Positions 5,373 through 34,538 of a DNA stretch of 39,786 nucleotides are shown here, in pieces (the first letter of the stretch is position 1; every line of letters begins with the position of its first letter). Source of the stretch: Solirubrobacteraceae bacterium (lineage in GTDB: Bacteria; Actinomycetota; Thermoleophilia; Solirubrobacterales; Solirubrobacteraceae); NCBI GenBank assembly GCA_017882375.1, contig JADGPP010000029.1:1-39786 (forward strand), written 5' to 3'. The translations under genes and the position numbers were made by a program. The notes below the pieces were generated by a model that made no database searches, was not told the origin of the DNA, and saw only the letters and a list, made by a program, of their open reading frames with translations.

Positions 5373-8027
5373 TTGACGCCCGATCGCGCAAAGACGCAGC
5401 CGCCAGCCGCCGCCGAGGTCCCCGAGCGGCCGACGCTCGATGGCCTGGAGGAGAAGTGGGGCGAGGTGTGGGAGCGCGACGGCTGCTACCGCTTCGACCG
5501 CTCGGCGCCGTGCGAGCGCGTGTTCTCGATCGACACCCCGCCGCCGACCGTCAGCGGCTCGCTGCACGTCGGGCACGTGTTCTCCTACACGCACACCGAC
5601 ACCATCGCGCGCTACCAGCGGATGCGCGGCAAGGCGGTCTTCTACCCGATGGGCTGGGACGACAACGGGCTGCCGACCGAGCGGCGCGTGCAGAACCACT
5701 TCGGCGTGCGCTGCGATCCCTCGGTCGCCTACGACCCCGACTTCAGCCCGCCCGCGGAGCCCTCGGAAAAGGCGCCGGTGTCGATCTCGCGGCCGAACTT
5801 CGTCGAGCTGTGCCTGCGCTTGACCGAGACCGACGAGCGGGCCTTCGAGCAACTGTGGCGCGGGCTCGGCCTGTCGGTCGACTGGTCGATGACCTACACG
5901 ACGATCGGCGCGCCCGCGCAGCGCATCTCCCAGCGTTCCTTCCTGGCGCTGCTGGAGCGCGGCGAGGCCTACCAGCTGGAGGCGCCGACGCTGTGGGACG
6001 TCGACTTCCAGACCGCCGTCGCGCAGGCCGAGCTGGAGGATCGCGAGCGTTCAGGTGCGATGAACCGCGTGCGCTTTCACGTGGCCGACGGCGACGCGCG
6101 CGAGGCGCTGATCGAGACGACGCGCCCGGAGTTGATCCCGGCGTGCGTGGCGCTGCTGGCGCACCCCGACGACGAGCGCCAGCGCGAGCTCGTCGGCAAG
6201 GAGGTCTTGACGCCGCTGTTCGGCACGCGCGTGCCGGTGCTCACGCACCCGCTCGTCGATCCGCAGAAGGGCACCGGGCTGGTGATGGTGTGCACGTTCG
6301 GCGATCTCACGGACGTCGTGTGGTGGCGTGAGCTCGGTCTGCCGGTGCGCTCGGTGCTCGGACCGGACGGACGCCTCGCCGACGTGCCCTGGGGTGCCGC
6401 CGGCTGGGAGTCCGAGGACTTGGAGCGCGCGCGACGCGACTACGGCGAGCTGAGCGGCAGGACGGTCAACCAGGCACGCAAGCGGATCCTCGAGCTGCTG
6501 GAGCAGGCCGGCGAGATAGTCGGCGAGCCGACGCTCCTGACGCGCGCGGTGAAGTTCTTCGAGAAGGGCGAGCGACCGGTGGAGATCGTCACCAGCCGCC
6601 AGTGGTTCTTTCGCACGATGCCCCACTCAGAGGCGCTGATCGAGCGCGGGCGCGAGCTTGCCTGGCACCCGCCGTACATGCGCGCGCGCTACGAGGACTG
6701 GGTCAACGGGCTGACGGGCGACTGGTGCGTGAGCCGACAGCGATTCTTCGGCGTGCCGTTTCCGCTGTGGTATCCGCTGGACGCCAGCGGCGCGGTGCGC
6801 CACGACGAGCCGATACCGGCGGGCGAGGAGCAGCTGCCGGTCGACCCGTCGACCGACGTCCCCGGCGGCTACACGCCCGAGCAGCGCGGGCAGCCCAACG
6901 GCTTCGCCGGCGACCCCGACGTGATGGACACGTGGGCGACCTCGTCGCTGACGCCGCAGATCGCCGGGCAGGCCGGCGAGGACGACGAGCTGTTCGCGAA
7001 GGTCTTTCCGATGGACGTGCGCCCGCAGGCGCACGACATCATCAGGACCTGGCTGTTCTCAACGATCCTGCGCTCGCACCTGGACTACCAGGCGCTGCCG
7101 TGGCGCAATGCGGCGATCTCCGGCTGGGTGCTCGACCCCGACCGCAAGAAGATGTCCAAGTCCAAGGGCAACGTCGTCACGCCGATGCACCTGCTGGAGG
7201 AGTACGGCGCGGACGCCGTGCGCTACTGGGCGGCGAACGGGCGGCCGGGCACAGACACGGCGTTCGACGCGCAGCAGATGAAGGTCGGCCGCCGACTGGC
7301 GGTGAAGCTGCTCAACGCGTCGAAGTTCGCGCTCGCCGACCTGCCGCCCGAGGGCGAGTCGCTGACCAACCCGCTGGACCGCGCGATGATGGCGCGCCTG
7401 GCCGCGGTCGTCGCGGATGCGACGAGCAGCTTCGAGCAGTTCGACTACGCACGCGCGCTCGAGCGCGTGGAGAGCTTCTTCTGGTGGTACTGCGACTACT
7501 ACCTGGAGCTCGTCAAGGGCCGGCGCTATGACACGGGCGGCTCGCAGGACGGCGACGGTTCGGCGGCCGGCGACGGCGGCGGGGAGGAGACGGCGTCGGT
7601 CAGCCGCGCGCTGCGGCGCTCGCTGTCGATCTTCCAGCGTCTGCTCGCGCCGTTTCTGCCGTTCGTCGCAGAGGAGGTCTGGTCGTGGTGGCAGGAGGGC
7701 TCGGTCCATCGCGCGAGCTGGCCGCAGGCGGGCGAGCTGAACGCCGCGCTCGGCGAGGCGCGTGCGGCCGACGGGGAGCTCGAGGACGCGGCCCTGGGCG
7801 TGGCCGCGGACGTGCTCAAGGAAGTGCGCAAGGCCAAGTCGCAAGCGCGGCGACCGATGCGCGCGCCGGTCACGCGGGCGGTCGTGCAGGACAACGCGCA
7901 GCGACTGGCGGCGCTCGAGCTGGGAGCCGGGGACCTGCGCCAGGCAGGCTCGATCGAGACGATCGAGACGGTGGTCGCAGAGGAGTTCGCGGTGGAGGTC
8001 GAGCTGGCGCAGGAGACCGCGGATTAG
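5373..8027 (+). CDS. valS: Valyl-tRNA synthetase
   Basis: 884 residues from TTG 5373, chosen because a -10 TACGAT lies 7 nt upstream; the frame is open to 5286. It is a class Ia synthetase: HVGH signature at residues 65-68, CP1 editing insertion at about 190-380, KMSKS at 593-597, then an anticodon-binding helical domain. The PNFVELCLRLTETDE and FEQLWRGLGLSVDWS blocks mark the archaeal/actinobacterial ValRS subtype. An Asp/Gly-rich linker is at about 728-740. The long C-terminal tRNA-binding coiled coil of Thermus-type enzymes is not obvious. It attaches valine to tRNA-Val and edits threonine in the cytoplasm. Confidence 0.95.
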   Translation: MTPDRAKTQPPAAAEVPERPTLDGLEEKWGEVWERDGCYRFDRSAPCERVFSIDTPPPTVSGSLHVGHVFSYTHTDTIARYQRMRGKAVFYPMGWDDNGLPTERRVQNHFGVRCDPSVAYDPDFSPPAEPSEKAPVSISRPNFVELCLRLTETDERAFEQLWRGLGLSVDWSMTYTTIGAPAQRISQRSFLALLERGEAYQLEAPTLWDVDFQTAVAQAELEDRERSGAMNRVRFHVADGDAREALIETTRPELIPACVALLAHPDDERQRELVGKEVLTPLFGTRVPVLTHPLVDPQKGTGLVMVCTFGDLTDVVWWRELGLPVRSVLGPDGRLADVPWGAAGWESEDLERARRDYGELSGRTVNQARKRILELLEQAGEIVGEPTLLTRAVKFFEKGERPVEIVTSRQWFFRTMPHSEALIERGRELAWHPPYMRARYEDWVNGLTGDWCVSRQRFFGVPFPLWYPLDASGAVRHDEPIPAGEEQLPVDPSTDVPGGYTPEQRGQPNGFAGDPDVMDTWATSSLTPQIAGQAGEDDELFAKVFPMDVRPQAHDIIRTWLFSTILRSHLDYQALPWRNAAISGWVLDPDRKKMSKSKGNVVTPMHLLEEYGADAVRYWAANGRPGTDTAFDAQQMKVGRRLAVKLLNASKFALADLPPEGESLTNPLDRAMMARLAAVVADATSSFEQFDYARALERVESFFWWYCDYYLELVKGRRYDTGGSQDGDGSAAGDGGGEETASVSRALRRSLSIFQRLLAPFLPFVAEEVWSWWQEGSVHRASWPQAGELNAALGEARAADGELEDAALGVAADVLKEVRKAKSQARRPMRAPVTRAVVQDNAQRLAALELGAGDLRQAGSIETIETVVAEEFAVEVELAQETAD

Positions 8028-8036
8028 GCGCGCGGC

Positions 8037-9209
8037 GTGAGCGAGGGGGCGAGCCCGCGCGACGGACGGTCGGTACTCGTCCTGGGTGACGCGGAGGGGC
8101 TCGCGGCGGCGCTCGTGCTGCGGCTTCAGCAGCGGGGCGTGCGCGTGGAGGTGGCGAGCGCGCTGAGCGACAGCGAGACGTCGGCGATCCTCGCGCAAGG
8201 CTGGTGGAGCGCGGTGTGCGTGGTCACGCGCGACGACGTGCTGGCGCTGCGGCTGACGCTGCTGAGCGCCCATCTGAGACCCGACCTGCCGCTGTGGGTG
8301 ACGATGTTCGACAGGACGATCACGCGCGAGCTGCGCCACGTGGCTCCGGCCGTGCACGTGCTCTCGCCCTCAGAGCTCGTCGCCAGCGACCTGGCCGAGC
8401 AGTGCGTCGCGGCCACCGGCAAAGACCGGGCGGGCGGGCGCGGGCGCAACGGGATACGCCTGGTCGACGGTGCCTTGCGCCTGCTCGTTCGTGCCGGCAT
8501 CGGCTTGCTGCTGGCGCTGGTATTCGAGGGAGCGATCACGATGATCGCGCTGCACGAGGGCGTGATCGATGCGCTGTACTTCAGCACGCGCTCGGTGGCC
8601 ACCGTCGCGGGGACGCCCGGCGCTGCCTCGGCCTCGGCCTGGTTCAAGGTGCTCTCTGCGCTGGACACGCTGGCCGCGCTGCTGCTCGTGGCCGTGTTCA
8701 CGGCGGCGCTGGTACGCCGGCTGAGCCGGCCGCGGCTGACGACGCTGCTCGGGCGCCGCGCTGCGCCGGCCCGCGGCCACGTGCTGCTGATCGGCTTCGG
8801 GCAGGTCGGCTTCCGCCTCGCGCAGGAGCTGCGCCGGCGCGGCATCGCCGTGCTGGGCGTGGAGCGATACCCCGACGCGCCGTGCGTGCGCCTGGCGCGG
8901 GCCGCCGGTATCCCGGTGGCGATCGGACGCGGCGATGACCGCGAGACGCTCGAGCGTCTCGGCATCCGCCGCTGCGCGGCCGTTGCGGCCGTGACCTCCA
9001 CCGATCTGGTCAACGTCGCGGTGGGGCTGGCGGCGAGCGACCTCGCGCCGGGCACGCCGCTCGTCCTGCGCCTGGGCGACGGCGAGGTCGCCGCGGAGAC
9101 GGACTCGCTGCTGCATCTCGGCTGGATCTGCGACGCGCACAAGATCGCCGCCGAGACGCTCGTACATGGGCTTAGCAGCGCGCCGGCTCCGCCCGTGGGC
9201 CTGGGATGA
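8037..9209 (+). CDS. RCK / TrkA-N membrane protein: Rossmann - pore-like 2TM - Rossmann, degenerate K+ filter
   Basis: 390 residues from GTG 8037, 9 nt after valS. Residues 12-120 look like an N-terminal Rossmann/RCK-like domain (VLVLGDAEG). Residues 147-173 form a membrane helix, 176-188 resemble a pore helix (DALYFSTRSVATV) and 204-226 a second membrane helix. Residues 247-380 form a clear TrkA-N/RCK domain (LLIGFGQVGFR, acidic E276 ending strand 2). Order and spacing match two-helix K+ channels with RCK domains. Where TVGYGD should be, the sequence reads TVAGTP (189-194), so K+ selectivity is probably lost. It could be a ligand-sensing membrane protein rather than a channel. Confidence 0.8.
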   Translation: MSEGASPRDGRSVLVLGDAEGLAAALVLRLQQRGVRVEVASALSDSETSAILAQGWWSAVCVVTRDDVLALRLTLLSAHLRPDLPLWVTMFDRTITRELRHVAPAVHVLSPSELVASDLAEQCVAATGKDRAGGRGRNGIRLVDGALRLLVRAGIGLLLALVFEGAITMIALHEGVIDALYFSTRSVATVAGTPGAASASAWFKVLSALDTLAALLLVAVFTAALVRRLSRPRLTTLLGRRAAPARGHVLLIGFGQVGFRLAQELRRRGIAVLGVERYPDAPCVRLARAAGIPVAIGRGDDRETLERLGIRRCAAVAAVTSTDLVNVAVGLAASDLAPGTPLVLRLGDGEVAAETDSLLHLGWICDAHKIAAETLVHGLSSAPAPPVGLG

Positions 9210-9218
9210 TCGGCAGAG

Positions 9219-9641
9219 ATGAACCTTCACAAGCACCGCCTCATCGCGAGCTGCCTGCTCGCCGCCGCGGTCACGCTCGCGGCACTTGCCATCTCGGCCT
9301 CGGCGGCCGCGCCGCTGAAGATCACCAACTGCAACAAGACGGCGAGCCGGCCGAGACTGCTGACGCTGACGTGCGGCGACGGCAACACGGTGCTCAAAGG
9401 GCTGAGCTGGTCGAGCTTCGGTGGTGCGACGGCGCAGGCGAAAGGCACATTCGTGACGAACACGTGCAAACCGAACTGCGCGCAAGGCAAGGACGTCAGC
9501 TACCCGGTGAGCGTGAAGGCGAGCGCGTCGAAGAAATGCAAAGGCGGCGTGAGGGTCTATGAAAAGGTCGCGCTGACGTTCACCGCCCGCAAGCCCGGAT
9601 CGTCGATACCGAGGAACTGGAAGCTCGGCTGCCCGATCTGA
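9219..9641 (+). CDS. Small secreted Cys-containing protein
   Basis: 140 residues. It has a Sec-type signal peptide (MNLHKHR, hydrophobic 9-28, likely AxA-type cleavage near residue 30). The mature part is small, basic and Ser/Thr/Lys-rich, with about six Cys in CNK, TCGD, TCKPNC, KCKG and a near-terminal GCPI, suggesting three disulfides. I recognise no family. There is no lipobox, so it is probably released or wall-associated. It starts 9 nt after the RCK gene and is followed by a strong hairpin, so it may be co-transcribed with the gene upstream. Confidence 0.65.
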   Translation: MNLHKHRLIASCLLAAAVTLAALAISASAAAPLKITNCNKTASRPRLLTLTCGDGNTVLKGLSWSSFGGATAQAKGTFVTNTCKPNCAQGKDVSYPVSVKASASKKCKGGVRVYEKVALTFTARKPGSSIPRNWKLGCPI

Positions 9642-9649
9642 GGTCGCTC

Positions 9650-9673
9650 GTCCGCCCCGCGCCGGGCGGACGC
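9650..9673 (+). terminator. Strong hairpin after the secreted-protein gene
   Basis: CGTCCGCCC-CGCGCC-GGGCGGACG, perfect 9-bp stem with a 6-nt loop, 8 nt after the stop; no T-run. It separates this gene from aspS. Confidence 0.6.
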
Positions 9674-9727
9674 GGACTCCCGTCGCGCGCTTGTCGGGCG
9701 CGGGCCGTGAAGTCGTGCGCGCTTGGA

Positions 9728-9733
9728 TAGGGT
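9728..9733 (+). promoter_or_regulatory. -10 element TAGGGT of aspS
   Basis: TANNNT 7 nt before GTG 9741. It decides between GTG 9741 and an upstream in-frame TTG at 9723, which would lie before the -10. Confidence 0.6.
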
Positions 9734-9740
9734 CCTGCCG

Positions 9741-11048
9741 GTGAAACGCACGCTGATAGCCGAGCTTCCGGGGCTCATCTCCGAGCGCGTGAGGCTGCGT
9801 GGCTGGGTCAACGCCCTGCGCGACCAGAAGCGCGTGCAGTTCATCGTGCTGCGCGACGAAACGGGCCTCGCGCAGGTCGTGCTGGCAAAGGGCGACCCGC
9901 CGAGCGAGCTCAACGAGCGCCTGTCGGCCTTGACGGTGGAGTCGGCGGTGACGATCGTCGGCACGGTCGCGGCCGACGAGCGGGTAAACCTCGGCGGGCT
10001 GGAGCTGAAGCTGGAGGAGCTGGAGGTCGACTCGCTGGCCGAGCCCGAGGTGCCGATCGCGGCGGACTCGGCGCTGGACAAGCGCATCGACTGGCGCTAC
10101 CTCGACCTGCGCCGTCCCGACCGCAAGCTGATCTTCGAGGTGCAGACGACGGCCGAGCAGGCGATGCGCGAGTTCTGGCGCAAAGAGCAGTTCATCGAGA
10201 TCCACACGCCGAAGCTGATGGGCTCGGCGAGCGAGTCCGGCGCCGAGCTGTTCAAGGCCGAGTACTTCGATCGCACGGCGTATCTGGCGCAGTCGCCGCA
10301 GTTCTACAAGCAGATGGCGATGGCTGCGGGCTTTGGCAAGGTGTTCGAGGTCGGCCCGGTGTTCCGCGCCAACCCGTCGTTCACGTCGCGTCACGACACC
10401 GAGTTCACCAGCGTGGACGTGGAGATCTCGTGGGTCGACTCACACGAGGACGTGATGTCCTTCGAGGAGCGCTGGCTGGCGCACGTGCTGACGACGGTCA
10501 AGGAGGCGCACGGCGAGCAGATCGCGCAGAGCTTCGACACGGCGCTCGTCGTGCCGGAGCTTCCCTTCCCGCGGATCACGCTGGAGGACGCCAAGGAGCT
10601 GCTGCGCGAGGCCGGCCACGACGCGCCGCCCGCCGGACACGACCTGGACCCGCCGAGCGAGCGGGCGCTGTCGGCGATCGTCTCCGAGCGCCACGGCAAC
10701 GAGTTCGCCTTCGTCACCGACTACCCGACGTCGGTGCGGCCCTTCTACCACATGCGCTACGAGGACCGGCCGACGGTCACCAAGAGCTTTGACCTGCTGT
10801 GGCGCGGCATCGAGCTGACGACCGGCGCCCAGCGCGAGCACCGCTACGACAAGCTGCTCGCACAGGCCGACGAGAAGAAGGTCGACGTCGGCCCGATCCA
10901 GTACTACCTGGACTTCTTCCGCTTCGGCGCGCCCCCGCACGGCGGCTTCGGCTTCGGGCTGACGCGCCTGCTGATGCAGATGCTCGGACAGGAGAACGTG
11001 CGCGAGGTGACGTTCCTCTATCGCGGACCGCATCGTTTGGAGCCGTAG
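9741..11048 (+). CDS. aspS: Aspartyl-tRNA synthetase, archaeal (short) type
   Basis: 435 residues. An N-terminal OB-fold anticodon domain (about 5-105) is followed by a class IIb catalytic core: motif 1 region with SASESGAELF, motif 2 FEVGPVFRAN and motif 3 GGFGFGLTRLLM. Its length and the YLAQSPQFYKQ block fit archaeal-type AspRS; the GAD insertion of the usual 590-residue bacterial AspRS is absent. It is not AsnRS, because the GAELF...QSPQ signature is AspRS-like. Some archaeal-type enzymes in bacteria also charge tRNA-Asn for the GatCAB pathway; the sequence alone does not settle this. GTG start from the leaderless promoter. Confidence 0.92.
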   Translation: MKRTLIAELPGLISERVRLRGWVNALRDQKRVQFIVLRDETGLAQVVLAKGDPPSELNERLSALTVESAVTIVGTVAADERVNLGGLELKLEELEVDSLAEPEVPIAADSALDKRIDWRYLDLRRPDRKLIFEVQTTAEQAMREFWRKEQFIEIHTPKLMGSASESGAELFKAEYFDRTAYLAQSPQFYKQMAMAAGFGKVFEVGPVFRANPSFTSRHDTEFTSVDVEISWVDSHEDVMSFEERWLAHVLTTVKEAHGEQIAQSFDTALVVPELPFPRITLEDAKELLREAGHDAPPAGHDLDPPSERALSAIVSERHGNEFAFVTDYPTSVRPFYHMRYEDRPTVTKSFDLLWRGIELTTGAQREHRYDKLLAQADEKKVDVGPIQYYLDFFRFGAPPHGGFGFGLTRLLMQMLGQENVREVTFLYRGPHRLEP

Positions 11049-26030: not shown

Positions 26031-27605
26031 TCAGCGCAGCTCTCGCAACGTCGGAAATGGGACGACTTCGCGAATCGACTCGGCACCCGAGAGGATCATC
26101 AAAAGCCGGTCCACGCCGATCCCACCCCCGGATGTCGGCGCCATCCCGTATTCCAGCGCTCGCACGTAACCCTCGTCATGGGGGTGCGGCTGGTCGCCAT
26201 CGTCGCCGGCGCGCTGCTCGCGCTGTTTGACGAAGCGGTCCAGCTGGTCGATCGGATCGTTCAGCTCGGAGTCGCCTGAGAGCACCTCCATACCCCGGAT
26301 GACCGTGTCGAAGTGCTCTCCCAGGCGCGGATCCTGCGAGTGGCGCTTGCAGATCGGGAACAGGTCGAGCGGAAAGTCGAAGACGTGCGTCGGCTGCATC
26401 AGGTAAGGCTCGACGTGCTTGGAGTAGACCGCTTCGACGAGCTTCGCCCAGCTCGTCTCCTGCTCGATCGTCTCGTCCAGATGGCTCAGCAGCTGCTCGC
26501 TGCTCGCCTCCAGGTAGTCGATGCCGACGGCCTGTTTGATCGCGTCGCGCAGCGTGATGCGCGCCCACGGTTTGGCCAGGTCGATCACTTGGCCGTCGTA
26601 TTGCTCGATCTTCGTGGTGCCGAGCGTCCGCAACGCAACCTGCTCGGCGACCTCTTCGCACCAGACGGCGATGTCGATGTAGTCGGCGTAGGTCTGCATG
26701 CACTCGAGGATCGTGAATTCCGGGCTGTGACGGTGGGAGAGACCCTCGTTGCGAAACGCCCGGCCGAGGTCGTAGACGTTCTCCAGCCCACCGACGACGC
26801 AGCGGTTCATGTAGAGCTCGACCGAGATCCGTAGGTGAACGTCGATGTCCAGCGCGTTGTGATGCGTCGTGAACGGGCGCGAGGCGGCGCCGCCGGCGAG
26901 TGTCTGCAGCACGGGCGTCTCGATCTGCGTGAAGCCTTTCTCGCGCAGGACCTGATGGATCGTCTCGATCACCTTCGTGCGTTTGAAGAACATCTCGCGC
27001 GTCGCAGCGTTCGCGAGCAGGTCGAGCTCGCGATAGCGGTAGCGGGTCCCGAGATCCTCCATACCGTGATGACGATCCGGGGGCGGGCGCAGCGCCTTGG
27101 CCAGCATCGTGCAGTCGTTCACGCCCAGCGCGAGCTCGCCGCGCTTGGTCACGTAGACGTCGCCGTCGACGCTGAGGATGTCCCCGATGTCGAGGCTCAG
27201 CATCCGCTTGTAGGCCTCGGCTCCCATCGCCTGCCGGCGCGCGACGACCTGCAGCGTGCCCGACTGGTCGCGTACGTCGAAGAACGTCGTCTTCGCGTGA
27301 TCGCGCCGGGCGGTCAAGCGCCCGCAGATGCGGTACGTCAGCGCCGGATGAGCGCCGGGTTCCATGTCCGCCGGTACATGCGCCGCCAGCAGGTCGGCGA
27401 TCCACGTGCGCGGCGTATCCCTGCGCAGGTGAGGGTAGGGCTCGAGCCCCTGACGGCGCAGGCGCTCGAGCTTCGCGCGGCGTTCGTCGACGCCTACGGC
27501 CGCTTCAGCCGGCGGCGCAGCGCTCAGCGGCTCGCTGCTCGGCCCGTCTGTCACCAGGGCCAATGGTGCGTCCTCGGGCGGAATGTGCCCGTTCTCGTTG
27601 CTCAC
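26031..27605 (-). CDS. lysS: Class II lysyl-tRNA synthetase-like protein with altered amino-acid pocket
   Basis: 524 residues from GTG 27605, whose GTGA overlaps the kamE stop. After about 85 low-complexity/helical residues come an OB-fold anticodon domain (about 90-170) and a class IIb core: motif 1 region (GFTQIETPVLQ), GGAASRPF, motif 2 (FRNEGLSHRHSPEFT) and motif 3 (GGGIGVDRLLM). The catalytic frame is intact, so adenylation is plausible. Against E. coli LysRS, E263, E301 and E447 match E240, E278 and E428, but Y280 is M303, N424 is S443 and F426 is D445; the usual APELYL reads SVELYM. It has the OB domain, so it is not EpmA. It may be the cell's LysRS or one specific for a lysine isomer. 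Confidence 0.85.
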   Translation of the reverse strand: MSNENGHIPPEDAPLALVTDGPSSEPLSAAPPAEAAVGVDERRAKLERLRRQGLEPYPHLRRDTPRTWIADLLAAHVPADMEPGAHPALTYRICGRLTARRDHAKTTFFDVRDQSGTLQVVARRQAMGAEAYKRMLSLDIGDILSVDGDVYVTKRGELALGVNDCTMLAKALRPPPDRHHGMEDLGTRYRYRELDLLANAATREMFFKRTKVIETIHQVLREKGFTQIETPVLQTLAGGAASRPFTTHHNALDIDVHLRISVELYMNRCVVGGLENVYDLGRAFRNEGLSHRHSPEFTILECMQTYADYIDIAVWCEEVAEQVALRTLGTTKIEQYDGQVIDLAKPWARITLRDAIKQAVGIDYLEASSEQLLSHLDETIEQETSWAKLVEAVYSKHVEPYLMQPTHVFDFPLDLFPICKRHSQDPRLGEHFDTVIRGMEVLSGDSELNDPIDQLDRFVKQREQRAGDDGDQPHPHDEGYVRALEYGMAPTSGGGIGVDRLLMILSGAESIREVVPFPTLRELR

Positions 27606-28384
27606 GCGGCGACGCCCCTTTGGGCCGAGGTGTCGTTCTGCGCCAGTCGGGCGGCGACCTCGCGCACGAGGAAGCTCGCCAGGTGGTGCGGGTATGTGCC
27701 GCGCGAGAAGCCCGCGTCGAAGCCGAGCTCCTTGGCGAGCTCGTTGGACACGCGTGAGCCGCCGCACGCGAGGATCGTCCGCGAGCGACGGCCCTCCGCC
27801 TCGACGATCTCCACCAGCTCGGTCAGGTTGTGGATGTGCAAGTCCTGCTGGGTGACCGTCTGGGAGACGAGGATCGCGTCCGCGTCGAGCTCGATCGCCT
27901 TGGCGAGGAGCACGCCGTTGGGCACCTGGCTGCCCAGGTTGTGCGCCTCGAACGCGCGGTAGCCTTCCAGTCCGCGGTTGCCGTGAAAGCCCTTCAGGTC
28001 AAGCATCGCGTCGATGCCCACGCTGTGCGTGTCCGAGCCCGTGCAGGCGCCCACGACGACGATCGGCCGCCCGATGTGCTGCGCGGCAAAGCCGTCGATC
28101 TCGTCTTCGCTCATGTACTCGGTGTCGACATCGCCGATCTGCTGGGCTGTGTAATCGAATGTCTGAACGACGTGCGCATAGACGAGGAAGTGCGTGTAGC
28201 CGTCGAGCAGGCGCTGGTGGTGGACCACCTCGGCGCGATCGAGGCCGAGCTTCGCGGCCAGCTCCATCGCCGTCTTGCGCGCAGCTGGGCCGTCGGGAAC
28301 GGGCAGCGTGAAGCTGAGCTGGATTATCCCGTCGCCGAGATGGTCGCCGTAGGGCTTGACCTTCGTGAGGTCGACCTCGGGCAT
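27602..28384 (-). CDS. kamE: D-lysine / beta-lysine 5,6-aminomutase, beta (B12-binding) subunit
   Basis: 260 residues. ATG 28384, 4 nt after the kamD stop, is chosen over an in-frame TTG at 28396. N-terminal region: YGDHLGDGIIQLSFTLPVP, with HFLVYAHV. The B12-binding Rossmann domain has the base-off signature DTHSVG within VVVGACTGSD, and the lysine in MLDLKGFHG matches the residue that forms a Schiff base with PLP in the resting enzyme. C-terminal: LVSQTVTQQDLHIHNL, ACGGSRVSNELAKELGFDAGF. Length matches known KamE (about 262). With KamD it moves the terminal amino group of D-lysine or L-beta-lysine from C6 to C5. Confidence 0.95.
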   Translation of the reverse strand: MPEVDLTKVKPYGDHLGDGIIQLSFTLPVPDGPAARKTAMELAAKLGLDRAEVVHHQRLLDGYTHFLVYAHVVQTFDYTAQQIGDVDTEYMSEDEIDGFAAQHIGRPIVVVGACTGSDTHSVGIDAMLDLKGFHGNRGLEGYRAFEAHNLGSQVPNGVLLAKAIELDADAILVSQTVTQQDLHIHNLTELVEIVEAEGRRSRTILACGGSRVSNELAKELGFDAGFSRGTYPHHLASFLVREVAARLAQNDTSAQRGVAA

Positions 28385-28388
28385 CGCG

Positions 28389-29945
28389 CTAGGCAACCTG
28401 CACCCCCTGCATCAGCTCCACGACCGGGTTCAGATAGCACTCCTCCGTCGCCACGATCCCGTCGATTCCGCGACCCTCGTCGATCCGACGGCGCACGTCG
28501 CCGAACGTGCCGTCTTCGATCGCTCCGAACATCCCCACGTCGGCAATCCGCTCGAGCAGCTCGTGCGCCTGGCGCAGCACTTCGCGCGCCCGCGTGACGA
28601 TGATGCCGTCAGGCTTGAACTGAATCTCCTCGCCCAGGTCGCGTGCGTAGTTGAACACATAGCCCACGCACTCCAGGCCGACCACGCGGTCGTGCAGGTG
28701 GGGGGTGAAGACGCCCTCGGTCGGCACCCCGGCGGTCTGAATCCCCTGCCCTGTGGCGATCGTGATCAGGTTGAACAGCGTGTCGCACGCGTGCGTGCGG
28801 AACAGGTTGCCGTCCATGTGCCGCGTCGGCGGCATGTACTTGACGGGGCAGTTCGGGAACAGCTCGCGTGTCAGCTGCGCCTGCGCCCACTCATACAGCA
28901 GGCCGTTGGTCGTCGGTGGGTCGATCTCGAACGCGTCACCCAGTGCGATCTGCTCGTCGGGCATGCCCGAGTCGCGCGCGAGCTGATGGTTGATGAACTG
29001 CGAGGCCGTCACCGACGGGGCGGCCTGCAGCGCGTCGGCCGTGCGCAGGTAGTTGTCCTCGCCCGTGTTGATGACAATTCCGAAGAAGCCGGTGATCATC
29101 CGCGAGATGCGCTGGTCGATCATCGTGCGCACCGGGTTGATGTCGCGGTAGAGGATTCCGTAGAGGGCGTCGTTGACCATGTTGTCCAGGCCCTCCATCG
29201 CGCCGAGCGTCGCGAACTCCGTCATGCACAGGCCCGAGCAGAAGCTCGACAGGCGGATGTAGCGCCCGTTGCGCTCGCACCACTCATCGAGCGCCTCGCG
29301 CAGGATGCGGAAGTTCTCCTGCGTGGCGAACGTGCCGCCGAAGCCCTCCGTCGTCGGGCCGTAGGGCACGTGTTCGAGCAGGCTCTGCGCCGTCGAGCGG
29401 GTCATCGAGACGACGTCGCCGCCCGTCTCCGCAACGGCCAAGGCGTGTACGACGTCCTCGTAGACGTTGCCCGTCGCGCTCAGCATATAGCGAAGCGGCG
29501 GCCTGCCGCCGAGCCGTTCGCGCTGCTCGCGGCGTTCGTCCGTCCGCCGCCGGATCTCGCCCATACGCTGGCGGCACTCGCCCGTGACCAGCTCGCGAAT
29601 CGCCCACTCCTCGGCAAGCGGAAGGCCGCACATGTCCAGCTCACCCGCGCCGACGGCCTCGGCAATCTGCTGCGCGTCACGTCCGCTGTGCAGCATCGCG
29701 TTGCCGAGCCAGTAGGCGACGCCGCGGCCGACGCCGCCGGCTTCCCGCACATGGTCGATCAGCGCATTTGGCAGCGGCACCTCCAGCTCGTTGATCCCGT
29801 CGACACCAAGGAAGCGCGTCACCGATCGCTCAACCGACAGAGTCGTCTTGCCGGCGGTTTCCTTCGCCATGCGCTCGGCGATCTGCGCGGCCGTCTGCCG
29901 GCACGCTTCGACGACACCGAGGTCCAGGTCGAGCTTTGAGTCCAT
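28389..29945 (-). CDS. kamD: D-lysine / beta-lysine 5,6-aminomutase, alpha (PLP/AdoCbl TIM-barrel) subunit
   Basis: 518 residues from ATG 29945, close to the 516 of clostridial KamD; a -10 TACGCT lies 10 nt upstream. Landmarks: SVERSVTRFLGVDG, GVGRGVAYWLGNAML, LRYMLSATGNVYEDVVHA, GTFATQENFRI, SSFCSGLCMTEFA, MITGFFGIVINTGEDNYLRTA, and PTRHMDGNLFRTHA. The TIM barrel carries the adenosylcobalamin/PLP active site. In clostridia the product is oxidised by Kdd and cleaved by Kce; neither gene is in this window. Here it is the first gene of a three-gene operon with kamE and the LysRS-like gene. Confidence 0.95.
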   Translation of the reverse strand: MDSKLDLDLGVVEACRQTAAQIAERMAKETAGKTTLSVERSVTRFLGVDGINELEVPLPNALIDHVREAGGVGRGVAYWLGNAMLHSGRDAQQIAEAVGAGELDMCGLPLAEEWAIRELVTGECRQRMGEIRRRTDERREQRERLGGRPPLRYMLSATGNVYEDVVHALAVAETGGDVVSMTRSTAQSLLEHVPYGPTTEGFGGTFATQENFRILREALDEWCERNGRYIRLSSFCSGLCMTEFATLGAMEGLDNMVNDALYGILYRDINPVRTMIDQRISRMITGFFGIVINTGEDNYLRTADALQAAPSVTASQFINHQLARDSGMPDEQIALGDAFEIDPPTTNGLLYEWAQAQLTRELFPNCPVKYMPPTRHMDGNLFRTHACDTLFNLITIATGQGIQTAGVPTEGVFTPHLHDRVVGLECVGYVFNYARDLGEEIQFKPDGIIVTRAREVLRQAHELLERIADVGMFGAIEDGTFGDVRRRIDEGRGIDGIVATEECYLNPVVELMQGVQVA

Positions 29946-30213: not shown

Positions 30214-31638
30214 ATGGCCATCGACATCTCACAGTTCGACGCCCCGCCGGACCTGATCTTCGAGGCGCCCTCGATCCAGATCAGCGACTCCCGCGTCGCC
30301 GAGCTCGGCGCCCGGGGAGCGGGTCGGCGGCAACTGCCGGCGACGCGCGACCTGCTGAAGGACGTGCCATACATCGTCGACTTCTGCGATCCCAGCCCGA
30401 CGACGGCGCTGCACGCTGGTTATCTGCGCAACATAGCGCTCGGGCACGCGCTTGCGAGCGCGCTCGAGGCAGCGGGCGCGCACGTCGCGCGCCAGACGCA
30501 GATCGCCGACGCCGGCCGCGACATGGGCGAGGCGATGGCCGGCTACATTCGCTACGCGGAGGAGGTGGACCCGGCCACGGCGCGGGAGAAGAGTGACCGG
30601 TTCGTCGGCCGCCTGCACGCGATGCACGCGAAGGAGCAAGGCGGCTTAGCGGACTACCTGCTGGCACGACTCGCAGCCGGCGATCCCGAGATCCGCGATC
30701 TGTGGCACACGGTGCGCGACTGGGCCGTGAGCGGTCAGAACGAGACGCTCGTACGACTGGGGGTTCGCTTCGATCGGACGATCTTCGACTCGCAGTACGT
30801 GCCGCGGATCGATCCGCTCGTGCGCCTCGCGCTCGCTCAGGGAGTCATCGCCGGCTCGCCGCAGGGGCCGCTGGCTTTCGAGACCGACGCGCCCGCGGAG
30901 GTGCACCTGCCGCTGATCGGCAGCGACGGCCTGCCGACGAAGGATCTGCGCGCGCTGACGATCTGGCGCTCGCTGATGACCGAGATGACCGACGTGACCT
31001 TGATCCGGCTGACCAGCGAGGAACGCCGCGACAACCTCGACGAGATCCTGCGCGGGCTCGCGCCGGGGTCGAAGGTCTATCCAACCGCGGTGCTGCACGC
31101 CGAGGTCGTCACCGACCGCGACGACGGGCCCGGGGGCGAGAGCACGCTGCTGATCGACGACCTGCTCGACATGCTCTTGAAGCACGACGAGCTTCGCTCG
31201 CTGGCTATCGAGGAGCGCCCGGCCTGCGCCGCGCAGGATCTCGCGGCGATGGTGCTGATGGGCATGTGCCTTGACCATCCGCTGCACGAGGCGCTGACGA
31301 TCACGCCCGAGCGCGTGCTGGACGGCCAGACGAATGCGGGATGGACGCTCGCGCGCGCTTGGATGAAGGCGTGGGATCCGCGCAACGACGGCGGTCCGCT
31401 GCCGCTCGCCGACGACGAGCACTACCGCTCGGTCGCCGCGCAGTCGCAGCTGCTGCCGCTGCTCGACCGCGCCGTCAAAGGCCTCGACGTCCTGCGGCTG
31501 GTGCGCTTCCTCGCCCGCATCGGCAGCTGGTACCTGGACACGGACACCGATCCGGCGGTCGGGCGGATCATGCGCTCGCTGCTCTCCAGCGGACTTGGCA
31601 GCCTGGGGCTCGTGCGTGCGCAGGAGCTGAGCGGCTGA
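30214..31638 (+). CDS. Arginyl-tRNA synthetase-like protein lacking HIGH and KMSK signatures
   Basis: 474 residues. ArgRS class Ia core: YIVDFCDPSPTTALHAGYLRN (52-73) aligns with the ArgRS block ending LHVGHLRN, then IADAGRDMGEAM (ArgRS INDAGRQIG), LVRLGVRFDRTIFDSQYV, SDGLPTKDLRAL and a helical DALR-like C-terminus. HIGH is HAGY (67-70). The lysine that replaces KMSK in many ArgRSs, two residues before the Leu of LHVGH, is Thr64. The KMSTR...TLDDLL site reads GGESTLLIDDLL (308-319). The N-terminal tRNA-binding Add1 domain is missing. It is a paralogue, possibly an amino-acid ligase/activator or a tRNA-independent enzyme; a normal argS should exist elsewhere. ArgS-LysA adjacency is typical of actinobacteria. 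Confidence 0.8.
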   Translation: MAIDISQFDAPPDLIFEAPSIQISDSRVAELGARGAGRRQLPATRDLLKDVPYIVDFCDPSPTTALHAGYLRNIALGHALASALEAAGAHVARQTQIADAGRDMGEAMAGYIRYAEEVDPATAREKSDRFVGRLHAMHAKEQGGLADYLLARLAAGDPEIRDLWHTVRDWAVSGQNETLVRLGVRFDRTIFDSQYVPRIDPLVRLALAQGVIAGSPQGPLAFETDAPAEVHLPLIGSDGLPTKDLRALTIWRSLMTEMTDVTLIRLTSEERRDNLDEILRGLAPGSKVYPTAVLHAEVVTDRDDGPGGESTLLIDDLLDMLLKHDELRSLAIEERPACAAQDLAAMVLMGMCLDHPLHEALTITPERVLDGQTNAGWTLARAWMKAWDPRNDGGPLPLADDEHYRSVAAQSQLLPLLDRAVKGLDVLRLVRFLARIGSWYLDTDTDPAVGRIMRSLLSSGLGSLGLVRAQELSG

Positions 31639-32363
31639 TGGCCGCGATCGACCGCACCTCGGGCTATGAGACCTCGATGGCGGACCCCAACGCGCTCGAG
31701 AACGACCTGCGCTCCTTCTACCTGACCGGCAGCGAGGAACCGAGCATCTTCGAGGAATGGGAGCACGGGATCGCCCGCGGCGACTCGACGACTCCCTCGA
31801 TCTGCTCGCCCACCTACCGCTGGTGGATCCTCGAGCATCTGCGCAACGCGCTCGACCGCGACCGCAAAAACCTGCTGCTCAGCCTCGGCGCGGGCAACGC
31901 CTTCGTCGAGCGCGTTCTAGGGCGCGAAGGCTATCCCGTGCTCGCCGTCGACGCGCTCGACCAGGCGGTCGAGCTGGCGCGCCAGGCCGGCGTGCCGGCG
32001 ATCTGCCAGAACCTCTACACCTGGGACGCTAAGCCTGAGTATTGGGATGTGATCTACGCGGACGGCCTGCTCGGTCACCTGCACGACGGCAGCGATGGCG
32101 CGCACACGGCGCTGGGCCTGTTCCACGGCTGGCTGAAGCCCTCCGGTGGGACCGTCGTCATCTCCAACGACTCGCCGAAAACGGACGATCCTGTCCAGCA
32201 GTCGGCGAACGTGCCGGGGTTCTACTGGCTGTCGGACAGATGGATCGCCGCCGAACTGAAGCGCGCTGGCTTCACGCGCGTCTCCACGGCGTCGCTCACC
32301 TACAGACGCCCCCTGTCTGGGCTGCGCACGCGAGCGATCATCACCGCGCACCGCAGCGGGTAG
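31638..32363 (+). CDS. SAM-dependent methyltransferase (class I fold)
   Basis: 241 residues, ATG 31638 overlapping the previous stop (TGATG). After about 70 N-terminal residues: motif I LLLSLGAGNAFVERVL, acidic post-I VLAVDALD, then QNLYTWDAKPEYWDVIYADGLLGHL (motif IV region) and GWLKPSGGTVVISNDSP, which is a methyltransferase_11/12-like order. The substrate is not evident. Tight coupling to the ArgRS-like gene and 16-bp spacing to the LysA-like gene place it inside the same pathway, so an amino-acid-derived small molecule is the natural guess. Confidence 0.78.
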   Translation: MAAIDRTSGYETSMADPNALENDLRSFYLTGSEEPSIFEEWEHGIARGDSTTPSICSPTYRWWILEHLRNALDRDRKNLLLSLGAGNAFVERVLGREGYPVLAVDALDQAVELARQAGVPAICQNLYTWDAKPEYWDVIYADGLLGHLHDGSDGAHTALGLFHGWLKPSGGTVVISNDSPKTDDPVQQSANVPGFYWLSDRWIAAELKRAGFTRVSTASLTYRRPLSGLRTRAIITAHRSG

Positions 32364-32379: not shown

Positions 32380-33681
32380 ATGCCGATGAGCGAGCACTTC
32401 GAGCGGCGCCTGGAGCCGATCCTCGCGGAAGTCGCCGAGCACTTCGGCACGCCGTTTCACATCTACGACGAACAGGGCATGCTGGCGAGCGTCGAGCGCC
32501 TGAGCGCCGCTTTCGCCACGCTGCCCTTCCACGAGTACTTCGCCGTCAAGGCGCTGCCGAACCTGACCGTGTTGCGCATCCTGCGCGAGCACGGTCTGGG
32601 CATGGAGTGCAGCTCGATCGCCGAGCTGGAGCTGGCCGCCGACTGCGGCGCGCGTGGCGAGGAGGTCTTCTTCACCTCCAACAACACCACGCACGCGGAG
32701 TTCGCCGCGGCGCTTGCCACCGACGCGATCGTCAACGTAGACGACATCACGCTGATCGACAAGCTGCCGGGCGTTCCGTCGGTCTGCTCGTTTCGCTTCA
32801 ACCCCGGACCCGAGCGCCTCGGCGACCGCCTGATCGGCTCGCCGATGGAGGCCAAGTTCGGTCTTCGCCGCGACCAGCTCCAGGACGCGTTCGCGCGGAT
32901 GCGCGAGCTGGGCGCCGAGCGCTTCGGGCTGCACGCGATGATCGCCTCCAACGTGTCGACGGTCCAGCCGCTGCTCGCGACGATCGCGATGCTGCTGGCG
33001 CTCGAGGACGGGCTGAGCCGCGAGCTCGGAATCGAGCTCGAGTTCATCAACGCCGGCGGTGGCCTGGGAATCCCGTACCGGCCCACCGATCACAGCCTCG
33101 ATGTGCACGCGCTCGGGCTCGGGGCGGCTCAGCTGCTGAAGGCCCACGAGGAACGCACCGGCCGCCTGCCGAAGCTGTTCTTCGAGGCCGGGCGCTACAT
33201 CACAGGCCCCAGCGGCGTGCTCGTGACCCGCGTGATCAACCGCATGAGCAAGTGGCGCGAATACGCGGGCGTCGATGCCGGGATCGCCGCGCTGTTGCGC
33301 ACCGCGTTCTACCCCGATGCCTACCACCACCTCACGCTGCATGGCGATCACGGCGAGCGCCCGCTGCAGCGCATCGACGTGGTCGGGTCGCTGTGCGAGA
33401 ACAACGACAAGTTCGCGATCCAGCGGGAGCTGCCGGAGCTGCGGGTGGGCGACCTGCTGCTGATCCACGACACGGGCGCGCACGGCCTCGCGATGGGCTT
33501 CAACTACAACGGCCGGCTGCGCCCGCAGGAGCTGTTGCTGCGCGTGGACGGGAGCGTCGAGCTGATCCGCCGCCGCGAGGAGGTCCGCCGGGACTACTTC
33601 GCGACGCTCCAGTTCGAGCCCGACGTGCTGATGGCGGCCGGCGAGTCCGCGCGCGAGCCGATCGTGGCGCAGGTGAGCTGA
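32380..33681 (+). CDS. lysA: LysA-like PLP (fold III) decarboxylase
   Basis: 433 residues; GGAGG precedes ATG 32380 (an in-frame ATG is at 32386). Alanine racemase-like barrel with PLP lysine K57 (YFAVKALPN), GGGLG (226-230), E269 (FEAGRY), then the second domain with C339-E340-N-N-D343 (LCENND, the CExxD specificity motif), DTGAHGLAMGFNYN and RRRE. This is the diaminopimelate decarboxylase family, making lysine from meso-DAP. One departure: the HxHIGS motif reads HAMIAS (185-190), so the His that stacks on PLP is Met187 and the Gly is Ala. It may be a genuine LysA variant or act on another D-centre amino acid. Confidence 0.78.
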   Translation: MPMSEHFERRLEPILAEVAEHFGTPFHIYDEQGMLASVERLSAAFATLPFHEYFAVKALPNLTVLRILREHGLGMECSSIAELELAADCGARGEEVFFTSNNTTHAEFAAALATDAIVNVDDITLIDKLPGVPSVCSFRFNPGPERLGDRLIGSPMEAKFGLRRDQLQDAFARMRELGAERFGLHAMIASNVSTVQPLLATIAMLLALEDGLSRELGIELEFINAGGGLGIPYRPTDHSLDVHALGLGAAQLLKAHEERTGRLPKLFFEAGRYITGPSGVLVTRVINRMSKWREYAGVDAGIAALLRTAFYPDAYHHLTLHGDHGERPLQRIDVVGSLCENNDKFAIQRELPELRVGDLLLIHDTGAHGLAMGFNYNGRLRPQELLLRVDGSVELIRRREEVRRDYFATLQFEPDVLMAAGESAREPIVAQVS

Positions 33682-33683
33682 GG

Positions 33684-34538
33684 ATGGCCACGCTCGCGAG
33701 CATCGCGGACTTCGGCGGCCTGGACTCGCTGCATGAGGAGATCGATCGTCTGTGGGCGCGCCGCGCAGAGCTCGACGACAGCGACCCGCGGGTGCAAGCG
33801 ACTGTGCTCAGCGTGATCGACCTGCTCGACCGCGGTCGCGTCCGCGTCGCGGAGATCGACAGCGACGGCGAGGTGAAGGTGCATGAGTGGCTAAAGCGCG
33901 CGATCGTGATGCTGTTCCGCGTCTGTCCGATGGAGCGCACCGAGGCTGGACCGATGCTGTTCGCCGATCGACTGCCGCCCAAGCGCGATTGTCCGAACGT
34001 GCGCGTCGTGCCGGGCGCCTACGCGCGCTTTGGCTCGTTCCTCGCGCCGGGCGCGATCCTGATGCCGAGCTTCGTCAACGTCGGCGCTTACGTCGGCAGC
34101 GGAACGCTGGTCGATACTTGGGCGACGGTCGGCTCGTGCGCGCAGATCGGAGAGCGCGTGCACCTCTCGGGCGGCGTCGGCGTCGGCGGCGTGCTCGAGC
34201 CGTTGCAGGCGAGCCCGGTGATCGTCGAGCGCGACGCCTTCATCGGCAGTCGCTGCATGCTGATCGAAGGCGCGCGCGTGGGCGCGGGCGCGGTCGTCGG
34301 GGCCGGCGTGATCCTCTCGCCGACGATCCCCGTGATCGACGCGGCGACAGGCGAGGAGATCGCACGCGGGCGCATACCGGCGTGGAGCGTGGCGATCGGC
34401 GCGACACGCTCGCGCAACTTCCCGGGCGGCGACTTCGGGCTTCCGTGCGTGCTCGTCGTCAAGCGCCTGTCTGAGGGCGAGCGTCACGACAAGGTCAAGC
34501 TGAACGAGCTCGTGCGCGATCACGGCGCGACGCTGTAG
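33684..34538 (+). CDS. dapD: Tetrahydrodipicolinate N-succinyltransferase
   Basis: 284 residues, ATG 2 nt after the lysA-like stop. Left-handed beta-helix acyltransferase of the E. coli DapD type: VRVVPGAYARFGSFLAPGA, MPSFVNVGAYVGSGTLVDTW, VHLSGGVGVGGVLEPLQA, PVIVERDAFIGSRC, and C-terminal VVKRL...HDKVKLNELVR. It is of the E. coli subfamily, unlike the Mycobacterium-type DapD of many actinobacteria. It transfers succinyl from succinyl-CoA to tetrahydrodipicolinate in DAP/lysine synthesis. Its last 19 nt overlap the 3' end of the convergent dapC. Confidence 0.92.
   Translation: MATLASIADFGGLDSLHEEIDRLWARRAELDDSDPRVQATVLSVIDLLDRGRVRVAEIDSDGEVKVHEWLKRAIVMLFRVCPMERTEAGPMLFADRLPPKRDCPNVRVVPGAYARFGSFLAPGAILMPSFVNVGAYVGSGTLVDTWATVGSCAQIGERVHLSGGVGVGGVLEPLQASPVIVERDAFIGSRCMLIEGARVGAGAVVGAGVILSPTIPVIDAATGEEIARGRIPAWSVAIGATRSRNFPGGDFGLPCVLVVKRLSEGERHDKVKLNELVRDHGATL

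Follow-up and report, generated by a model that had tools for sequence, protein, structure and literature searches.

A lysyl-tRNA synthetase paralog with an altered amino-acid pocket, coupled to lysine 5,6-aminomutase genes in a Solirubrobacteraceae bacterium

The 39,786-nucleotide stretch analyzed here (the window; positions 1 to 39,786 of contig JADGPP010000029.1, assembly GCA_017882375.1, from a Solirubrobacteraceae bacterium) carries a gene for a paralog of lysyl-tRNA synthetase (LysRS) that overlaps kamE, which together with kamD encodes a predicted B12- and pyridoxal phosphate (PLP)-dependent lysine 5,6-aminomutase, KamDE. The amino-acid pocket of this paralog differs from that of canonical LysRS at conserved positions, and within its clade the pocket type and the coupled partner enzyme change together. 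We see about an even chance that the paralog has been repurposed to activate an amino acid made by its partner, here 2,5-diaminohexanoate, and to load it onto tRNA-Lys.

The LysRS paralog and its amino-acid pocket

The open reading frame (26031–27605, minus strand) has a GTG start and encodes 524 amino acids. Both the class II core (PF00152) and the N-terminal OB anticodon domain (PF01336) are matched in Pfam, and the protein scores 455.5 bits with the bacterial LysRS model TIGR00499 (lysS_bact), above the cut-off of 427.6. Its AlphaFold2 (AF2) model, built from 39 sequences, has a mean predicted local distance difference test score of 80.8, with blocks that include the pocket strand 439–447 above 90; the top structure matches are the LysRS entries 3e9h and 6wbd (Z 35.8, 454–457 residues aligned), and LysRS structures overall give Z values of 34–36. 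The kamE 3′ end reads ...GCCGCGTGAGCAAC, and its TGA shares four nucleotides, GTGA at 27602–27605, with the start of the paralog, which bears out the coupling described in an earlier sequence-only reading of this DNA.

Residues below are numbered as in E. coli LysS (the query sequence is identical to 1bbu) unless they are given for the window paralog, and counts refer to an alignment of 22 paralogs from the genus with 33 comparison LysRS. The sequence-only reading had reported that motifs 1–3 and three pocket acids are kept but that the pocket is otherwise altered, and the alignment agrees: E240, E278 and E428 are present as E263, E301 and E447, whereas Y280, N424 and F426 have become M303, S443 and D445, and APELYL reads SVELYM (261–266). 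The pocket residues of the window paralog are S261, V262, E263, S294, E301, M303, F416, S443, G444, D445 and E447, with S294 at the N271 position and S443-G444-D445-S-E447 in place of N-G-F-S-E428. Positions 280, 424 and 426 are Y, N and F in 27–32 of the 33 comparison proteins, so the conserved lysine pocket is not present here. A238S, N271S and N424S occur in 22 of 22 paralogs and are rare in the comparison set, and F426D occurs in 21 of 22, which supports the claim of an altered substrate pocket; the earlier list of changes was, however, incomplete, since N271S, K244N, R253N, S397F and one motif-3 change also mark the clade.

All 22 genus paralogs retain R262, E264, H270, the motif-3 R480 and the three pocket acids. 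This bears on a possible role as a noncatalytic regulator or scaffold with KamDE or its product as the binding partner; such a role has HisZ-like precedents (PMC9437257) and would suit the tight gene coupling, but the invariance is that of a working adenylation site, and we regard this explanation as very unlikely.

The paralog is under purifying selection. The ratio of nonsynonymous to synonymous substitution rates (dN/dS) between the window gene and its ortholog in the genus genome G003 is 0.21, against 0.23 for canonical LysRS, and it is about 0.2 for LysRS, KamD and KamE alike. Because A238S, N271S and N424S are fixed in every paralog and dN/dS is canonical-like, the pocket is not the result of chance or decay, and an assembly oddity is likewise ruled out by the conservation of the gene and its neighbors across the genus.

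An additional LysRS in the genome and the genus

The source genome (3.57 Mb, 96% complete) holds three LysRS genes, of which one, on contig C84, is canonical and two are altered; the second altered copy, on contig C53, precedes kamD, kamE and the reactivase gene kamB. All genomes compared are metagenome-assembled. The altered LysRS occurs in 19 of 24 genomes of the genus, 18 of which also have a canonical LysRS (the nineteenth is 83% complete), and it was not seen in the other five, one of them 97% complete. The canonical copy in 18 of 19 carriers and the five genomes without the altered copy make this an accessory rather than a housekeeping gene. That the paralog is the sole housekeeping LysRS is ruled out by the canonical gene elsewhere in the genome; the sequence-only reading had recognized that the same triad in sole, essential LysRSs would speak against a new function, and no such case was found beyond that single incomplete genome.

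In a maximum-likelihood tree all altered LysRS form one clade (100/99 support), sister to 27 canonical LysRS of the order and apart from LysX. The named relatives are uncultured Solirubrobacteraceae or Solirubrobacterales, and among the matches listed to plasmid sequences there are only lysS-like places at ≤41% identity.

An extra LysRS could in principle be a lysine-specific backup or an analogue-resistant enzyme, with a pocket that excludes a toxic analogue made by its neighbor and so shields translation. Resistant second copies of aminoacyl-tRNA synthetases are known from antibiotic producers (reviewed in PMC9437257), and an analogue-making enzyme is adjacent here, as in self-resistance. 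Yet this pocket has acquired a charge and no longer has the Tyr that contacts the epsilon amine, which should hurt lysine binding, and the canonical copy with its ordinary pocket would still mischarge, so we hold this explanation to be improbable.

Pocket types and their partner enzymes

The form found in the window, Met280 with Ser-Gly-Asp at 424–426 (Met280/SGD), is represented by 14 sequences in 12 genomes, and these same 12 are all the KamD-bearing genomes of the genus. KamDE lies near it wherever the flanks could be read, usually with kamB; the window cluster lacks kamB, and in G003 there are two kam clusters tail to tail with kamB in both, standing between kamE and the LysRS gene. The shared function with KamDE that had been proposed from the gene overlap is thus supported. 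At KamDE loci elsewhere in the phylum, no LysRS-like neighbor is present in the flanks read.

The Leu280/SGD form comprises seven sequences, and six of the genomes that carry it have no KamD. The next gene in five of these six encodes a class III diaminobutyrate--2-oxoglutarate family aminotransferase, and in the sixth the contig ends; with TIGR00709 (cut-off 401.6) the partner transaminase scores 404 bits in G019 and 395.5, just below, in G014, and the two genes overlap by 4 nt in three genomes. In four Leu280 genomes the neighbor of the paralog is the apbC/Mrp gene that elsewhere stands ahead of the Met280-KamDE operon, so the partner was exchanged in place. One genome, G016, holds both forms.

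The carriers of a third form, Phe280/Trp397/Gly424-Gly-Gly426/Asp428, are two genera of a different family, and one further genus of the Solirubrobacteraceae has a slightly different version. This form follows a second PrmC-type methyltransferase in 9/9 genomes checked, commonly with a 4-nt overlap; this methyltransferase scores 176–193 bits, below the PrmC cut-off of 199, and the true PrmC (226–246 bits) is encoded elsewhere in the genome. Trp397, Phe280 and the hollowed floor of this pocket could hold a methylated amine. An early-branching paralog with Glu280/SGS, in G017 (locus L116), is followed by an S-adenosylmethionine (SAM) methyltransferase gene (7799–9496 and 9294–10928). Four-nucleotide overlaps thus join LysRS paralogs to three different partners, and pocket type and coupled partner change together within the clade.

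Tyr280 of LysRS contacts the epsilon amine of lysine. The sequence-only reading had suggested that the Asp in place of Phe426 could meet the shifted amine of the KamDE product; this Asp is not specific to KamDE, as the Leu280 form has the same SGD and is coupled to the diaminobutyrate transaminase. It is better to say that Asp426 in the Met280 and Leu280 forms would fit a side-chain amine lying nearer the carboxylate than in lysine. We raise more tentatively, and with some doubt, the wider possibility that in this one LysRS clade specificity has changed repeatedly (2,5-diaminohexanoate, 2,4-diaminobutyrate and possibly a methylated amino acid) by exchange of the overlapping supplier gene, giving non-standard aminoacyl-tRNAs for dedicated use.

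The KamDE product and the proposed reaction

At the window locus the alpha and beta subunit models of lysine 5,6-aminomutase are both matched over cut-off, and KamE keeps DTHSVG (DxHxxG) and, 11 residues on, a lysine that matches the known PLP lysine. Since the catalytic residues, OB domain, U35-reading residues (below), selection and KamE motifs are all kept, we infer that the paralog is a functional, tRNA-binding synthetase and KamDE a functional mutase.

In lysine fermenters the substrate of KamDE is beta-lysine made by KamA, and the product is 3,5-diaminohexanoate (PMC3149608). A KamA/EpmB-type lysine 2,3-aminomutase (TIGR00238) is over cut-off in 0/24 genomes of the genus, so there is no beta-lysine route. 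D-lysine is a further KamDE substrate and is converted to 2,5-diaminohexanoate, which is the product to be expected here. Of the substrates put forward in the sequence-only reading, the KamDE product therefore stands in its 2,5 form, and beta-lysine and 3,5-diaminohexanoate become unlikely with KamA and EpmB missing. In Micromonospora matsumotoense (locus L053) kamD-kamE-kamB adjoins P450 and nonribosomal peptide synthetase genes, which suggests that a natural product incorporates a unit made by KamDE.

In the reaction that we propose, KamDE would shift lysine's terminal amine from C6 to C5, yielding 2,5-diaminohexanoate. The paralog would bind this product with Asp445 (for Phe426) meeting the shifted amine, and Met303 (for Tyr280) could pack on the new methyl; it would then form the aminoacyl-AMP, and the residue would most probably pass to tRNA-Lys. 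Substrate identity, adenylation and tRNA charging are predictions from sequence.

The anticodon domain and possible fates of an activated residue

R77, F84 and Q95 of LysRS (numbered without Met1) read U35 of tRNA-Lys, as is known from LysRS-tRNA structures, and all three are invariant in 22/22 paralogs. Divergence of the OB domain relative to the catalytic domain is 1.19 in the paralogs vs 1.13 in canonical LysRS. Retention of the OB domain and of the residues that read U35 makes transfer to tRNA-Lys the most probable fate.

A different use of the adenylate is a tRNA-independent ligase that forms a lactam or amide: the near amine would attack the adenylate to give 3-amino-6-methylpiperidin-2-one or, for the Leu280 form, 3-aminopyrrolidin-2-one; alternatively, the enzyme would acylate a small-molecule amine. 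Class II LysRS is reported to turn ornithine into its lactam via Orn-AMP (PMC8001834; also PMC7373986). In contrast to lysine, both partner products would close into rings of 5 or 6 members, an Asp next to the amine might serve as the base, and no aminoacyl-tRNA transferase stands out (MprF and FemAB were looked for). However, a tRNA-free enzyme would have no need of an OB domain and U35 readers that are normally constrained here, relatives of the EpmA and AsnA type have no such domain, and lactam formation is no match for the PrmC-coupled form; we consider such a ligase unlikely.

Ribosomal use, in which charged tRNA-Lys would place the non-standard residue at some lysine codons, has in its favor that tRNA-Lys recognition appears kept and that the only tRNA-Lys isoacceptors found in the genome are the normal two, UUU and CUU. 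AAA (70) and AAG (512) among 27,774 codons nonetheless look ordinary for a GC-rich genome, a peptidyl-tRNA with such a residue at its end would tend to cyclize, and the canonical LysRS competes, which makes this highly improbable.

Several points weigh against activation of 2,5-diaminohexanoate and its loading onto tRNA-Lys. Glu134, also near U35, is Gln in 18/22 paralogs. No dedicated tRNA-Lys is present among the 47 tRNA matches of the genome, so charging of tRNA-Lys would compete with translation. An MprF-type transferase is absent from the 24 genomes except for one partial match in one of them, and FemAB gives weak matches only, in 3/24. The adenylate of either 2,4-diaminobutyrate or 2,5-diaminohexanoate should be prone to cyclization. 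Finally, because the Met280 and Leu280 forms are one clade each, the co-variation of partner and pocket rests on three or four independent events.

Lipid or wall transfer via MprF or FemAB has no good candidate in the 24 genomes. ARAGORN finds zero tRNA genes in the window, so none adjoins the paralog gene, and at six loci there is no Rfam match at gathering score to cobalamin, lysine or T-box riboswitches.

Comparison with known systems

The paralog shares with LysS/LysU (TIGR00499) its whole architecture, motifs 1–3 and OB domain, at 42–51% identity to the canonical LysRS of the order, but it differs in Y280M/L, N424S, F426D, A238S and N271S, in being an extra copy and in its coupling to an amino-acid-making enzyme. 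EpmA (PoxA/GenX), the (R)-beta-lysine ligase of EF-P, is also a LysRS paralog with a lysine aminomutase partner (EpmB) and uses a lysine isomer; it has no OB domain and its acceptor is EF-P, whereas this genus has no EpmB/KamA-type mutase. The OB domain and a TIGR00462 score of 175.8 bits (cut-off 286.9) confirm the earlier statement that the protein is not EpmA. LysX, the actinobacterial MprF-LysRS fusion, is likewise a second LysRS used outside translation, but the window paralog has no MprF domain (nor has the genome), scores 435 with NF002821 against a cut-off of 742 and falls in a separate clade.

The kamD and kamE genes, and kamB in the sister cluster, match those of lysine fermenters over all family cut-offs; unlike there, KamA is missing and the operon includes a LysRS paralog. 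The valanimycin SerRS route, SbzA and indolmycin TrpRS also tie a duplicated aminoacyl-tRNA synthetase to a metabolite pathway, but they use or protect a proteinogenic amino acid, while here the partner would make a non-standard one and is exchanged within one clade. In the openly licensed literature we found no publication that connects a LysRS paralog with either KamDE or diaminobutyrate transaminase.

The divergent operon and other features

The features of the locus are collected in Table 1. kamD faces a divergent operon of ArgRS-like, methyltransferase, LysA-like and DapD-like genes, all kept in G003. An ArgRS-like gene (6374–7897) also lies directly upstream of kamD-kamE-kamB in actinomycete SZAS-16 (locus L055), so the ArgRS-like protein may use the KamDE product as well.

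Table 1. Coordinates of the LysRS paralog, the kam genes and the divergent operon in the window
Feature	Position	Strand	Basis
LysRS paralog, Met280 type (OB fold ~92–167, class II core 187–520)	26031..27605	-	Translation, Pfam, alignment, AF2 model
GTGA, kamE stop overlapping LysRS paralog start	27602..27605	-	Sequence
kamE	27602..28396	-	NCBIfam NF052385 338 bits, cut-off 280; motif
kamD	28389..29945	-	NCBIfam NF052384 737 bits, cut-off 600
Divergent ArgRS-like protein, 474 aa	30214..31638	+	Pfam/NCBIfam; canonical-size ArgRS on contig C106
SAM methyltransferase	31638..32363	+	PF13489; syntenic in G003/L043
Diaminopimelate-decarboxylase-like (LysA-like) PLP enzyme	32380..33681	+	TIGR01048 284.7 bits, below cut-off 297.9
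DapD-like tetrahydrodipicolinate N-succinyltransferase	33684..34538	+	NF008808 297 bits, cut-off 204

Elsewhere in the window (9723–11048) lies a gene for an archaeal-type aspartate--tRNA(Asn) ligase (NF003483, 483 bits), the sole AspRS/AsnRS-type gene found by a PF00152 search of the genome. The source genome (G000) also has an orphan tRNA of 73 nt (C53, 93038–93110, plus strand; L157, 1501–1573) whose anticodon is UAA and which lacks a long variable arm, and the normal tRNA-Leu(UAA) is on C99. The orphan tRNA recurs in loci L130, L129, L217, L218, L220, L222 and L223, and in most loci it adjoins genes for an ArgRS-like protein (~555 aa), a PabA-PabB-type aminodeoxychorismate synthase, a chorismate-mutase-like protein and a P450; another protein there resembles prephenate dehydratase by eye, with no family match. 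The gene content of these loci resembles a p-aminophenylalanine-type pathway equipped with a synthetase and tRNA of its own. In the sampled genes TTA codons are very rare, numbering 6 of 27,774. A 97-nt tRNA-like gene, readable as a tRNA-Glu(UUC) whose D arm contains an inserted hairpin, is present in two copies at contig ends (C34, 5–100; C171, 5089–5175).

Significance

To our knowledge, very few natural synthetases handle non-standard amino acids (PylRS, SepRS and EpmA). Three or more pocket types occur in the clade described here, and because the supplier enzyme of each can be named, the substrate predictions are directly testable in vitro. If these are correct, the paralogs would be ready-made enzymes for genetic-code engineering and would show how LysRS specificity evolves, and they would bear on the exclusion of ornithine and diaminobutyrate from the genetic code.
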